Shown piece after piece: positions 111 through 20,229 of a DNA stretch of 20,229 bases (its first letter is position 1; every line of letters begins with the position of its first letter). A program made the translations under genes and the position numbers. The notes beneath the pieces are model-generated. The model was not told the origin of the DNA, searched no databases, and worked only from the letters and a program-made list of their open reading frames with translations. The stretch covers positions 1-20,229 of the forward strand of contig CAMLDW010000042.1 of assembly GCA_946479035.1 (NCBI GenBank), in the 5' to 3' direction. The stretch comes from an uncultured Chthonomonadaceae bacterium. Lineage in GTDB: Bacteria; Armatimonadota; Fimbriimonadia; Fimbriimonadales; Fimbriimonadaceae.

Positions 111-1925
111 CTAACCGTATAGCGGGCCGTAGGTTGCGCAGGCGCGGAAGTCGGCGGACTCCGGATCGGCGGTGCCGAAGCGCGACCACGCGGCGGGGCG
201 GAAGGCGTTCGCGACATTGTGCATGTCCACGGGGACTCGCAGGATGCTCGCGAGGGTGATGAGGTCCGCTCCGATGTGGCCGTAGCAAATGGCTCCGTGG
301 TTCGCTCCCCAGTTGTTCATGACGCCGTACACCGACGTGAACGCGCCCTCGCCTGTGAGGCGCGGGACGAACCAGGTCGTCGGCCACGTCGGGTTCGTCC
401 TTTGGTCGAGGTCCTCGTGGACCTTTTTCGGGAGGTCGACGGTCCATCCTTCTGCGATCTGAAGCACTGGGCCGAGGCCGGAAACGAGGTTGAGGCGGCA
501 CATCGTGACCGGCATGTCGCCTTTTGTCGTGAAATCGGTCGACCAACCGCCGCCCGGGAAGTACTCGGTCATGGAGGGGCACCAGCGGGTCGCGGCGAGG
601 CACCGCTCGGCGTCAGTCCCGGTCACTTGGTGCCAAGGTTTGATCGCACCGCCTCCCTTGCCCTCGCCCACGCTTTCGCCCGTCCAGTCGAGCGCAGAGG
701 GGCCGGAGTTGATGAGGTGGAGCAGGCCGTCGGCTACTTCCCCGCCCCCTGACCCACTCCGCGCCTGCGGGGAGAGGGAAACGCGGACGCCGGTCGCGCG
801 CTTGATGGCATCGAGGGACCAGAAGGTGCGGACGTCGGAGAAGAGCTGCGCGGTGCCGGTGAGGAGGTGGCCGAAGAGCATCGAGACGGCGTTGAGCGAG
901 TCGTTCTCGGTGGCGAAGGCGAACGGCTGGCGAACCCCGTTCCAGTCGAAGCTGCTCGTGAGCACCGCTTCCATAAAGTCGCCGTTGGGATAGTGGTCGG
1001 TCCACTGGCGCTGGCCCTGGAAGCCGCCCGCGAGCGCGTTGTGGCCCTGAGCCTGTTCTTTGTGGCCGAGCTCCTCCAGTCGCGGGTTGCCTACCATGAG
1101 GTCGCGCGCGACCAGCGCCATCTTTATGCTCGTCTCCCAGTCCTGGTCTTTCTGTGCCCGCGTGCGCTGCTTCTTGGGCGAGTTCCAGTCCTTCCCTTCC
1201 TTGCAGTTCGCCTTGACCCACTTCATCGCCTTATTGAGCTCTCTCGGGTCATAGAGCCCGTGCTCGATGCGTCCGCGGAACTCGGACATGTCGATGTGCA
1301 TGACCTTCATACCGAGGAACGCCTCGAAGAACCGCGTGTCGACGATCGAGCCGGCGATGCCCATCGAGGTGCCGCCCATCGCCGCGTAGGTCGTGCCCTT
1401 CATCGTCGCGACCGCGACGCCCGCGCGCACGAAGCGCAGTATCTTTTCCTGCACGTCCTGCGGGATCGTCTTGTCGCCCGCGTCCTGTACGTCTCGGCCG
1501 TAGATGCCGAACGCCGGGAGCCCCTTTTGCGCATGGCCCGCCAAGACTGCGGCGAGGTAGACCGCGCCTGGCCTCTCGGTGCCATTGAAGCCCCACACCG
1601 CCTTCGGCCGCAGCGGGTCGGTGTCCATCGTCTCGCTGCCGTAGCACCAGCAGGGCGTGACGGTGAGGGTCAGGCCGACGCCCTCCTTCCTGAACTTCTC
1701 CTCGCACTGCGCGCTCTCCGCCAGGCCGCCGATCGGAGTGTCGGCGAGGACGCACTCGACTTTCTCGCCGCTGGCATGCCTTGCCCCCTTTTCGATGAGC
1801 TTGGCAGTGTTGCGGGCCATCGCCATGACCTGGCCTTCGAGCGACTCGCGCACGCCGCCGAAGCGGCCGTCGATCGTGGGGCGGATCCCTACCTTGGGGA
1901 GCGCGGTCTTCAGGCGGTTGGACAT
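111..1925 (-). CDS. fucI: L-fucose isomerase
   Basis: This 604-residue protein is an L-fucose/L-arabinose-type isomerase, a cytoplasmic Mn-dependent enzyme converting L-fucose to L-fuculose (also D-arabinose to D-ribulose). Visible metal ligands match the family: Glu340 in a TEND motif, Asp364 in FSDVR and His543 in NHGAICYGH. The 24-residue Glu-Asp spacing equals that of the E. coli enzyme (Glu337/Asp361), while the Asp-His distance is about 12 residues longer because of a Ser/Gly-rich insert at residues 383-396. The frame is open further upstream, but the extension overlaps the divergent TPR gene and looks non-coding. The ATG at 1925 begins the recognisable N-terminus. A CATACT hexamer lies 7 nt before it and no Shine-Dalgarno is visible. 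No fuculokinase or aldolase gene is nearby, so the rest of the pathway must lie elsewhere. Confidence 0.95.
738..779 (-). repeat. In-frame repeat-like insert within fucI
   Basis: This roughly 42-bp stretch encodes the Ser/Gly-rich run [14 protein letters not shown] at residues 383-396, between the DVRTFW segment and the conserved [10 protein letters not shown] segment. On the fucI strand it reads CCCTCTCCCCGCAGG followed by a GGAG...GGG arm, an imperfect palindrome resembling intergenic GC-rich repeats rather than coding sequence. It accounts for the extra length between the second and third metal ligands. Its boundaries are estimates. Confidence 0.5.
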
Positions 1926-1932
1926 TGTCAGA

Positions 1933-1938
1933 AGTATG
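1933..1938 (-). promoter_or_regulatory. -10 element of fucI, probably leaderless
   Basis: CATACT on the minus strand ends 7 nt before the fucI ATG, so transcription would begin at or next to the start codon. No -35 consensus is evident. Confidence 0.5.
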
Positions 1939-1968
1939 AAGGATGAGGGGTGATCGAGAGTTGCTGTT

Positions 1969-2028
1969 CCCGGTCTGCCGCGACAGAGGAATTCGCGAAC
2001 GCGGTGCGCGCACCGCGGCCAGACCGGG
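1969..2028. repeat. Nested inverted repeat between divergent genes
   Basis: CCCGGTCTG (1969-1977) and CAGACCGGG (2020-2028) form a 9-bp inverted repeat. Between the arms lies a perfect 16-bp palindrome, GCGGTGCGCGCACCGC (2001-2016). The element occupies the 215-nt gap between fucI and the divergent TPR gene, the only other content seen there being the two -10-like hexamers. It could be an operator, a cruciform or a mobile palindromic repeat remnant. Confidence 0.5.
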
Positions 2029-2123
2029 GCACCCACTGCTTTCACCCGGAGGTGAGGGATGGGATTGGCTCGACCTATGCGACGAATGCGACCTGGAAGG
2101 GACGGAACGGCCTGCGCCAGAGG

Positions 2124-2129
2124 TAGATT
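2124..2129 (+). promoter_or_regulatory. -10 element of the TPR-nuclease operon
   Basis: TAGATT ends 11 nt before the ATG at 2141. The implied leader is only about 4-5 nt and there is no Shine-Dalgarno upstream of the ATG. Confidence 0.4.
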
Positions 2130-2140
2130 CTGAGACAGTA

Positions 2141-3067
2141 ATGGTCGATCGGAGGAGGCAATTATGGAAGTGGGCGGGGGGCGCTGCTGGCGCGGCCTTG
2201 CTGGCGGTGTTGGGCGTCTGGGTCTACCGAACCTGGTTCGTGCCGCCAACGCAGGCGCAGATCGATGCTGCGGTGAACGGACAGCAGTGGGCCAGGGCTG
2301 CGCGGCTGATTGAGCGCGCCGACCTCTCGCACGACCTCGGGGGGAACTACTACAACCTGGGCGTCGCATACACGCACCTAAACCAGGGCGACAAAGCGAT
2401 TGAAGCGTTCATGAAGGCCGACGACAAGGCGCACGGAGGCGGCGAGTCGCGGTTCGAGATCGCCGCGCTCTATGCAAAGCAGCGAGAGAATGCGCTTGCG
2501 ATACAGTGGCTGCGAGACGCCTTCGACGCAGGTTTCTCCGACGATGACAGGTTGCGGAGCGAGGCAGCGTTCTCGCGACTGCGCGGCACTCCGGAATGGG
2601 AAGCGCTGCTTCGCTCGCTCTCGGATGACGAGCTTACGGCCCCAAGGGGGCTCGACTTCCTGCTCGGGACATGGGACCTGACGCGCGGCGGCCTCGGCTC
2701 GAGCACCACAACGTTTACAAAGCTCTTCGACGGGCTCGCGATCGCAGAATCTTGGGCACAGACGAACCCTGGTGCGAGCGGGATGTACGTGTTCGACACG
2801 CAAGCTGGGCACTGGACCTACACATACGTCGACGGTTTCGACCGCGTGTTCCGCGGGACCGTTCGCACAGGTAGGCGGTCGGCGACGATCACGGGCACAC
2901 TGACCTCGATGGACGGCTTGCAGACAGAGAGGCGGGTGGAGATCCGCACCTCGGCTGGAGCCGTGGACTACTCGGTGTTCGACTCCCGCGACGGAGGGCG
3001 CACTTGGGACGCTCCCGACACGCGCCGGCTCACGGTCGTTTCTGCCGGTGAGAGGCCCTCGTTCTAA
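2141..3067 (+). CDS. Membrane-anchored TPR protein with beta-rich C-terminal domain
   Basis: This 308-residue protein starts with a short basic segment and one transmembrane helix (about residues 10-28, [18 protein letters not shown]). TPR-like helices follow ([22 protein letters not shown] and neighbours). The C-terminal half, from about residue 170 (FLLGTWDL), looks like a lipocalin/DUF1579-type beta-barrel domain. The TPRs suggest protein binding, but the function is unknown. The ATG at 2141 was chosen because the hydrophobic anchor follows at once. A strong GGAGGAGG lies 10 nt inside the gene, but the ATG it would serve (2163) is out of frame. The stop lies 3 nt before the nuclease gene, indicating one operon. 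It shares domain order with the protein at 4575-5540, so the two are probably paralogues. Confidence 0.8.
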
Positions 3068-18752: not shown

Positions 18753-19121
18753 TCACCGTTCAGGACTCCTTGCCAGTCCGCCATACCTCCGCGTGTAGGT
18801 TCTGCCCGGCCAAGCCGAGTAATGCAGTCGGCATTCGACGAATAGTTCCGTCTTCGTGCATGTCAACTGCGCATCAACTTTCGATAAGTAGCTCTCCATT
18901 TGCCATGCCCCCGAAGGATTAGTGATCGCCGCTGAGCTAGCTAGATCCTGAAGGCTCATCGGAGGTTGCCCGAACAATGTAGTATAGTCCCTGCACATGT
19001 CGAGCAGAGATGCTGCCTGAGTGTGCTCCCGCACTGCTTGCTCGTTTAGCAGGTACCACGCTCCGCCGCAACCCAATGCTAAGACGGCCACAGCGAGCCA
19101 CATAAGAGGAGGCATTTTCAT
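18753..19121 (-). CDS. Small membrane-anchored protein, candidate RHS immunity protein
   Basis: I do not recognise the family. The 122-residue protein begins MKMPPLMWLAVAVLALGCGGAW: an N-terminal membrane anchor or signal segment, with a Cys in a weak lipobox-like context (ALGC). The rest is predicted to lie outside the cytoplasm and has three further Cys (in DMCRDY, TCTKTE and VECRLH) that could form disulfides. The ATG at 19121 has AGGTG 6 nt upstream; a GTG at 19130 is an alternative. It starts 9 nt after the RHS gene stop on the same strand and shares its lower GC. Position directly after a variable RHS tip is where immunity genes sit, so that role is inferred from context alone. Confidence 0.7.
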   Translation of the reverse strand: MKMPPLMWLAVAVLALGCGGAWYLLNEQAVREHTQAASLLDMCRDYTTLFGQPPMSLQDLASSAAITNPSGAWQMESYLSKVDAQLTCTKTELFVECRLHYSAWPGRTYTRRYGGLARSPER

Positions 19122-19130
19122 GTCTCGCAC

Positions 19131-20229
19131 CTACCGCAACTCACCCGACCCGCTAGTGATTTCTCTCAGCCAGGGCTTCCCTCTACCAAACGCCGCATCT
19201 TCAGGAGCACAAGGATAGATGTGCCAGCTGCCCCCATCGTGATTTGACAGATCACTGTACGACAGCGTGCCGCTCGCACCCCAAACCTTAACTCCCACAT
19301 ACGACCAGTCTGTTGCACCGCCAATTGCCTCGCAGGTTGCAAGGACAAGGACCTGAGTTGCTCTGTTACCCCTTCGCTTGTTTGCGTAGGTGTATGCGTC
19401 GAGTCCACCCCAAGACTCAACGTAAGAAAGGCTAATCTTCCCTGCAGCGCCGTGACCGACAAATACCACAATATCGGAGTCGTCCAATGCCCTCTCCCAA
19501 GAACTTCCTGATGGCTCATCTAGAACAGACACCGAAATGTGAGCACCGGGATTTGAATTCTGAATCGTTCTTAACCAGCTTGCGCCAATTCCACCCGAAT
19601 AGAGAATCATTCCATCTGACCTGTCGCCGTAGACAATGGTGACATGGATGTCCACCCCTTTTAGGCCACTTGGATCAGTGACCGTTACAGGGTTCCCTTG
19701 CGCATATCGAAACCAGTTAGAGCCTGACCGCATTGGGTCGGCAGTCAAGAACCTGCCAGACACGGTGTCGAGATACCGATGCCCTAGAAGGAGCAATCCA
19801 CTTGGATCCTCCTGATACCCCGATGCAGCTCCATATCCGAAAGTGCTGGACCAGGAACCTGAAGAACTGACCACGTTGCCGAAGGCGTCGTAGACGCGCG
19901 ACGCCGCGACGGTCTCGTTCTCGGCAGATTGCGAGTTGGTGTTCTTCAGCCCCGCGTGCGCGAACGTCGTCGTGCTGCTCGCCGTGCGAGAGACCCCCGG
20001 CGTGTAGTCGGCGACCCCGTCCGCGACGACTGGCGAAGTCACCCCCAGCCCGTTCCTAAAGTAGCTGCGCGATCCGTGCGTACCGCTCGCAGAGGTCCGC
20101 GCACCCAGGCCGTTGTACCCGTAGGAGTCCGAAGTCGAGTTCGGATAAGTGATCGAGGTCACCCGCCCCTCGTAGTCGTACGCGAACGAGGTGGTCGAAG
20201 ACCCCGCGGTCACCGCCGTCGTCCGCCCA
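19131..20229 (-). CDS. RHS-repeat protein C-terminal part with caspase-like tip (5' end outside window)
   Basis: The frame is open to the right edge, so the N-terminus is missing; 365 residues are visible. First come YD repeats (TSFAYDYEGRVTSITYP, SRVYDAFGNVVSSSG), then the RHS-associated core ending in LLLLGHRYLDTVSGRF, a NWFRYAQGNPVTVTDPSG block and the tip. After PSG (near 19665) about 177 residues of unrelated sequence follow. They show a beta strand and HVTIVYGDRSD, then DDSDIVVFVGHGAAGK and TQVLVLATCEAIGG. His (codon 19454-19452) and Cys (19334-19332) are 40 residues apart, each after a hydrophobic strand, as in caspase-like CHAT/C14 proteases. RHS proteins are large polymorphic toxins or surface proteins whose tips are the effectors. 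A protease tip is inferred. The tip DNA is clearly less GC-rich than the repeat part. Confidence 0.88.
   Translation of the reverse strand, partial: GRTTAVTAGSSTTSFAYDYEGRVTSITYPNSTSDSYGYNGLGARTSASGTHGSRSYFRNGLGVTSPVVADGVADYTPGVSRTASSTTTFAHAGLKNTNSQSAENETVAASRVYDAFGNVVSSSGSWSSTFGYGAASGYQEDPSGLLLLGHRYLDTVSGRFLTADPMRSGSNWFRYAQGNPVTVTDPSGLKGVDIHVTIVYGDRSDGMILYSGGIGASWLRTIQNSNPGAHISVSVLDEPSGSSWERALDDSDIVVFVGHGAAGKISLSYVESWGGLDAYTYANKRRGNRATQVLVLATCEAIGGATDWSYVGVKVWGASGTLSYSDLSNHDGGSWHIYPCAPEDAAFGRGKPWLREITSGSGELR

Follow-up and report, generated by a model that had tools for sequence, protein, structure and literature searches.

The variable C-terminal tip of the RHS protein at this locus raises the question of what such a domain does at the end of a polymorphic toxin. 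It is encoded near one end of the window, by which we mean the whole 20,229-nucleotide stretch of DNA analyzed, a contig of an uncultured Chthonomonadaceae bacterium. The preliminary description had read the region as a caspase-fold (CHAT-like) protease toxin. Here we examine the boundary that sets the tip apart, its relatives, its probable fold, and the gene behind it.

The RHS protein, its boundary, and its tip

The features on which the argument depends are as follows.

19131..20228, minus strand: RHS/YD-repeat protein, C-terminal 365 codons plus stop, an open frame that runs to the window end and starts beyond it (PF05593 RHS_repeat, 9.2e-11).
19662..19892, minus strand: RHS-associated core, residues 113-189 of the fragment (TIGR03696 Rhs_assc_core, whole-protein E=1.3e-14).
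19662..19691, minus strand: PVTVTDPSGL, the predicted core-tip boundary with an aspartyl autocleavage site, whose sequence fits PxxxxDPxGL (motif as given in PMC8636562).
19134..19661, minus strand: variable tip, 176 aa, intact, a caspase-like (clan CD) cysteine-peptidase-like domain (family alignment, PDB profile search, and hhalign).
19452..19454, minus strand: His259 of the fragment (residue 72 of the tip when G188 is residue 1), the predicted catalytic His in GHG, present in 24 of 24 family sequences.
19332..19334, minus strand: Cys299 of the fragment (residue 112 of the tip), the predicted catalytic nucleophile, present in 24 of 24.
18753..19130, minus strand: small protein adjoining the stop codon of the tip, 125 aa long if started at GTG and 122 aa if started at the ATG at 19121, bearing a single hydrophobic anchor at its N-terminus; a putative cognate immunity protein.

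The fragment has several hallmarks of RHS polymorphic toxins, namely YD/RHS repeats, an RHS-associated core, and a boundary followed by a variable tip. In the portion of PMC8636562 used here, PxxxxDPxGL is described as marking the Rhs toxin boundary, with aspartyl autocleavage at that point freeing the tip. Among the loci fetched, 73 different variable tips follow the boundary, the window tip included; they were gathered by regular expression, which missed the tip at locus L081, so that it is absent from the rule-based anchor counts and the permutation test below. RHS core matches number 148 in 16 genomes. Arrays of short RHS tips, several with a small gene behind, are seen at L148 (genome G145), L158 (G105), and L104 (G129), and these resemble orphan toxin-immunity cassettes.

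The window genes near the RHS protein include those for ribosomal proteins L10 and L12, and the window aldehyde dehydrogenase is 67% identical to its counterpart in a Fimbriimonadaceae MAG, from which the bacterium appears to lie near that family. A similar aldehyde dehydrogenase is encoded by genome G132 (L012), which sits in the phylum set searched below under the record title Methanoregulaceae archaeon; either title or bin looks wrong. Elsewhere in the window, the L-fucose isomerase frame (111-2369, minus strand) overlaps that of a TPR protein (1943-3067, plus strand), and the isomerase start is probably further in.

On rereading the sequence, the layout noted in the preliminary description was borne out and its coordinates are right: behind the RHS core boundary, the tip reads DIVVFVGHG ... 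QVLVLATCEA, a strand ending in GHG and then a strand ending in Cys, with 40 residues from His to Cys and the strands inferred from hydrophobic runs only.

Relatives of the tip and conservation of His and Cys

Taken by itself, the tip appears to be almost an orphan in sequence searches. Single-sequence protein searches (word-based, with candidate length limited) returned only P0002, a fragment of 303 aa whose tip is identical, and a three-row profile again found P0002 alone. Single-sequence searches of viral contigs, plasmids, and genome contigs gave no tip relatives, scans of viral contigs with the relatives of the tip were empty, and a single-sequence PDB search returned two antibody chains only. 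A PHROGs search with the tip gave nothing of weight (best 0.24), nor did PADLOC.

Relatives were found by comparing the RHS C-terminus with the genomes of six relatives, in which two proteins, at L043 and L044, aligned past the core. The resulting three-row profile, A1, was run against 291 genomes from the phylum (Armatimonadota) to which G003, the genome of a Fimbriimonadaceae MAG, belongs, and gave 18 rows. Two of these were query rows and ten were new members picked with the help of a display of HG...C; L060, L052, L062, L063, L064, and L065 were left out, the last five of which are absent from the results of the next search. L060 (G270) is a 630-aa protein that by eye combines a CHAT-like region (GHG ... 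CC) with a C-terminal portion resembling a formylglycine-generating-enzyme domain.

The 13-row profile A2 gave 35 rows in 30 of the 291 genomes at E <= 0.001. Every row at E <= 3.3e-12, 21 in total, was accepted with the motif ignored; together with the window these make up the 22-row alignment A3, which contains 13 RHS tips and nine free-standing proteins of 150-165 aa. Fourteen weaker rows were left out (L086-L095 and four without loci, the best at E=5.6e-7), three of which the HG/C display did not cover. More distant proteins among them (L087-L090, L092, L094, and L095) have HG and C by eye; some are clostripain-like and some apparently secreted. Two further RHS tips outside the profile, found among the 73 collected, match at 8.1e-14 (T057, at L156) and 1.9e-6 (T037, at L140), both with H and C. 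The family thus numbers 24: 15 RHS tips, from the window and 12 genomes, and the nine free-standing proteins. At E <= 1e-5 no member was found in 329 genomes from the G292 phylum (a Myxococcales-titled locus) or in 345 from the G293 phylum (a Bacteroidetes-titled locus); absent a known positive, such empty results carry no weight.

His and Cys are each present in all 24 sequences and every other column varies; G14 and both glycines flanking the His are each found in 22 of 24, and identity to the window tip is 16-24% among the 22 family sequences measured. Loss of His or Cys among homologues, which would have spoken against the preliminary reading, is not seen. We also asked how readily the pattern arises by chance, using a motif drawn up after the family was known (hydrophobic run, [GA]H[GSA], 20-70 residues, strand, C). 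It occurs in 138 of 20,000 shuffles of the window tip (0.7%), and in 14/14 family tips versus 1/59 other RHS tips from the same genomes. That single tip, at L118 (G090), reads AYFGHS ... SAGC and by eye resembles another caspase-like tip; it falls below the family-profile threshold (E=0.18), and an anchored protein follows it. Conservation of the dyad is a stronger test than the chance motif.

A probable caspase-like fold

Profile searches rank peptidases of clan CD (the clan of CHAT, C14, separase, and vacuolar-processing enzyme) first. The best PDB match with A3 is the CHAT protein 8tl0 (E=1.3e-4), whose GHG and NAC line up with the His and Cys of the family; next come separase 5mz6 (E=0.0057), where the match covers the His side only, and vacuolar-processing enzyme 5nij (E=0.096, not significant). 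The smaller A2 ranks CHAT (0.0026) and separase (0.039) ahead of unrelated nitrite reductases (0.38).

Comparison of alignments by hhalign points the same way. The family matches DUF6345 with a score of 44.1 and a probability of 88%, C14 with 32.6 and 42%, and CHAT with 29.4 and 20%, and in each case H falls on H and C on C; in C14 and CHAT these are presumably the catalytic residues. The best of 25 column shuffles per family scored 15.7 for DUF6345, 17.5 for C14, 14.4 for CHAT, and 15.1 for the control Abhydrolase_6. The control itself scored 17.6, slightly above its own shuffles, at a probability of 0.9%, over 24 columns around GH with the Cys outside the match; an alpha/beta-hydrolase identity was rejected on these values. 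The partner alignments were drawn from genomes of the phylum and used 29/30 CHAT, 11/14 DUF6345, 23/30 hydrolase, and 25/30 C14 loci. DUF6345, the best partner, is itself of unknown function, and C14 and CHAT stand below even odds.

Pfam matches of individual members include DUF6345 in 7/13 (best 4.5e-5), C50 in 6/13 (best 0.0088), and C25, C13, and DUF4347 in one each; two unrelated Pfam families also match one member each. The window tip scores below the cut-offs of DUF6345 (PF19872, 17.3 versus 26.9 bits) and C50 (14.9 versus 27.8), and CHAT (PF12770) is absent from its Pfam scan at E up to 10. Besides RHS families, none exceeds its curated cut-off in the libraries searched. Judged against these models, the tip is not a CHAT or DUF6345 member in Pfam's sense. 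A single-sequence AlphaFold2 model was uninformative (pLDDT 34.3, pTM 0.27).

Because the dyad is invariant and profile comparison sets it on the HG and C of these peptidases, with the control at 0.9%, the caspase-like (clan CD) reading of the tip is well supported by sequence comparison. The C14/CHAT assignment of the preliminary description is upheld to that extent: PDB profile search ranks clan CD proteins first, and the match that aligns His and Cys with the CHAT and C14 dyads was obtained by profile comparison (hhalign 20% and 42%).

The partner gene and the proposed working of the toxin

The protein encoded behind the window tip matches nothing in Pfam at E <= 0.1 in its 122-aa form and has one chance-level match (0.097) in the longer form; no immunity family appears in its Pfam scan at E up to 10. 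Of eight partner proteins scanned, that of the window among them, none matches a Pfam family significantly, Imm36 and Imm57, both of which are in Pfam, included.

The partner picked by eye behind family tips looks anchored in 13 of 13 loci, where the choice passed over an overlapping unanchored frame in L105 and L106 and the L106 gene starts 66 nt on. When partners are taken by rule, an N-terminal anchor of any kind is found behind 13/14 family tips versus 38/55 other RHS tips (p=0.09, not significant); many genes behind the other tips are multi-membrane-spanning. A single N-terminal anchor, a rule set post hoc, is found behind 13/14 versus 15/55 (p=1e-5). The 55 are the 59 other tips minus four without a downstream ORF by the rule, and L118 is counted with them. 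The L043 partner, the only family member to fail the anchor rule, is lipoprotein-like by eye. At L122, L123, L134, L161, and L185, the RHS tips are hydrophobic and the proteins encoded behind them span the membrane several times; these may be pore-forming toxins paired with immunity proteins in the membrane.

Similarity among partners follows the tips. The comparison covered 71 downstream proteins: 55 behind other tips and 16 of the family, of which two were included manually. Pairs similar at phmmer E <= 0.01 number six within the family, one among the others, and none across. Five similar pairs occur among the 14, and all five lie inside tip clades, a result equaled in 0 of 100,000 permutations, with the clades listed when the pairs were known and one clade supported at only 82/82. 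Two of these five pairs each lie within one genome and could have arisen by cassette duplication; none of the similar pairs includes the partner encoded in the window. The motif Y...G.WP is present in 8/16 family partners versus 3/55 others, with shuffle means of 1.7 and 6.0; having been written after some partners had been seen, it is only a hint of a partner mark. The anchored downstream proteins are probably cognate immunity proteins.

The anchors suggest that the partner perhaps faces outside the cytoplasm, and the toxin may act in that compartment too, on which the evidence from export is divided. Three RHS N-termini of relatives were inspected by eye: that of G004 has a Sec-like signal peptide, that of G144 has none, and the third runs off its contig. 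Sec export, if it occurs, would explain why the producer needs protection outside the cytoplasm.

We consider it probable that this RHS protein is a polymorphic toxin whose toxic part is the tip, a caspase-like (clan CD) cysteine peptidase using a His-Gly/Cys dyad, and that the anchored downstream protein is its immunity protein. The RHS protein would be exported with the RHS shell caging the tip; aspartyl autocleavage after DPSGL would free the 176-residue tip, and the peptidase could then attack a competitor's proteins, perhaps at the membrane or outside the cytoplasm. The membrane-anchored downstream protein, with its domain probably outside the cytoplasm, would block the peptidase and so protect the producer. 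Proteolysis, toxicity, release, compartment, and immunity are all put forward here from sequence and gene order. The domain is the C-terminal-most one, a position that Zhang et al., in the part of their article consulted (PMC3482391), read as that of the toxin.

That same part of Zhang et al. (PMC3482391) lists most caspase-like domains of polymorphic toxins as releasing peptidases, so the domain could instead process its own RHS protein, the role ascribed to internal caspase-like domains of other polymorphic toxins, and not be the toxin. We regard this as unlikely, since only a short tail lies behind the domain, the RHS core already has a boundary motif for aspartyl autocleavage (as outlined in PMC8636562), and similarity among the partner genes tracks that among the tips.

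The free-standing relatives bear on a further explanation. These nine proteins are found in nine genomes without RHS, and the surroundings of eight look by eye like housekeeping genes, a setting kept in some lineages; full-length neighbors are 67-86% identical among L111, L112, and L114 and 82-99% identical between L109 and L110. In a midpoint-rooted tree, where the window tip is a long branch in no starred group, three free-standing rows (100/99) are nested in a group with RHS tips (96/93), and the other six form a second group (98/99). Their housekeeping setting implies that the fold need not be toxic. The two clades and this setting would suit a tip that is an inactive or nontoxic passenger from the free-standing family, with a regulatory or binding role. 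Such a passenger is improbable, because H and C are fully conserved in RHS tips whose sequences otherwise differ widely, which points to catalysis, and a partner gene lies behind the tips.

That the tip is an alpha/beta domain of another enzyme class, such as an alpha/beta-hydrolase with HG and C similarly placed, is equally hard to credit: although only RHS families pass a curated cut-off, the structure model has a pLDDT of 34, and the hydrolase control slightly exceeds its shuffles, that control leaves the Cys uncovered, the three best PDB profile matches are CHAT, separase, and vacuolar-processing enzyme, and H and C fall on HG and C in C14, CHAT, and DUF6345.

Relation to known systems and meaning

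To our knowledge, few interbacterial toxins have been shown to be proteases, and Cpe1 is one. As described in the available part of PMC12136450, it too is an interbacterial cysteine protease with an immunity protein, and its family also has Rhs carriers, but it has a papain-like fold with a Cys-His-Asp triad, and its demonstrated targets are the topoisomerases GyrB and ParE.

The general kind, a caspase-like tip, was predicted earlier as Tox-Caspase by Zhang et al. in 2012, with RHS proteins among the carriers (PMC3482391, in part); the window tip itself is below the threshold of every catalogued family in the libraries searched. By that description, Tox-Caspase resembles the window tip as a C-terminal-most caspase-like domain with H and C, although the fold here is placed by profile only. 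Its immunity proteins are given there as Imm36 and Imm57, in contrast to the small, anchored window partner without a significant Pfam match, and Armatimonadota is absent from the phyla listed in the part consulted, the two being likened by description and not by sequence (PMC3482391). An N-terminally anchored immunity protein, Imm65, is described in the same source, but it is tied to Tox-JAB-1 and is called exceptional, as the only lipoprotein immunity protein of that collection (PMC3482391, same portion). In Bacteroides fragilis, CHAT and RHS genes share one region, but according to the part of PMC11854122 used here they are separate genes, and the authors think of the CHAT proteins as immunity, whereas here the domain is an RHS tip. 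CHAT, C14, separase, and DUF6345 share the order of the dyad with the family, H on H and C on C (H only for separase), and differ in that the family is below every curated cut-off and short, at 150-181 aa.

A literature search of titles and abstract openings, with subscription papers and preprints outside its reach, recognized no experimental RHS caspase-like toxin, and DUF6345 was not mentioned in the literature so covered. As far as these searches show, caspase-like RHS tips rest on prediction.

The family offers a defined set with clear catalytic candidates, control mutants, and partner genes, and in view of the anchored partners one may ask whether action outside the cytoplasm is open to a caspase-like toxin. 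With the free-standing relatives, passage between bacterial caspase-like proteins and toxin domains becomes testable. We suggest, tentatively and as something still rather doubtful, that this peptidase family, seen here in the Fimbriimonadaceae phylum alone, leads a double life, both as RHS tips with anchored immunity, perhaps extracytoplasmic, and as free-standing proteins without a visible signal peptide, in two clades, fixed among housekeeping genes. If true, caspase-like toxins would on more than one occasion have been captured to serve as resident proteases, or resident proteases recruited as toxins.
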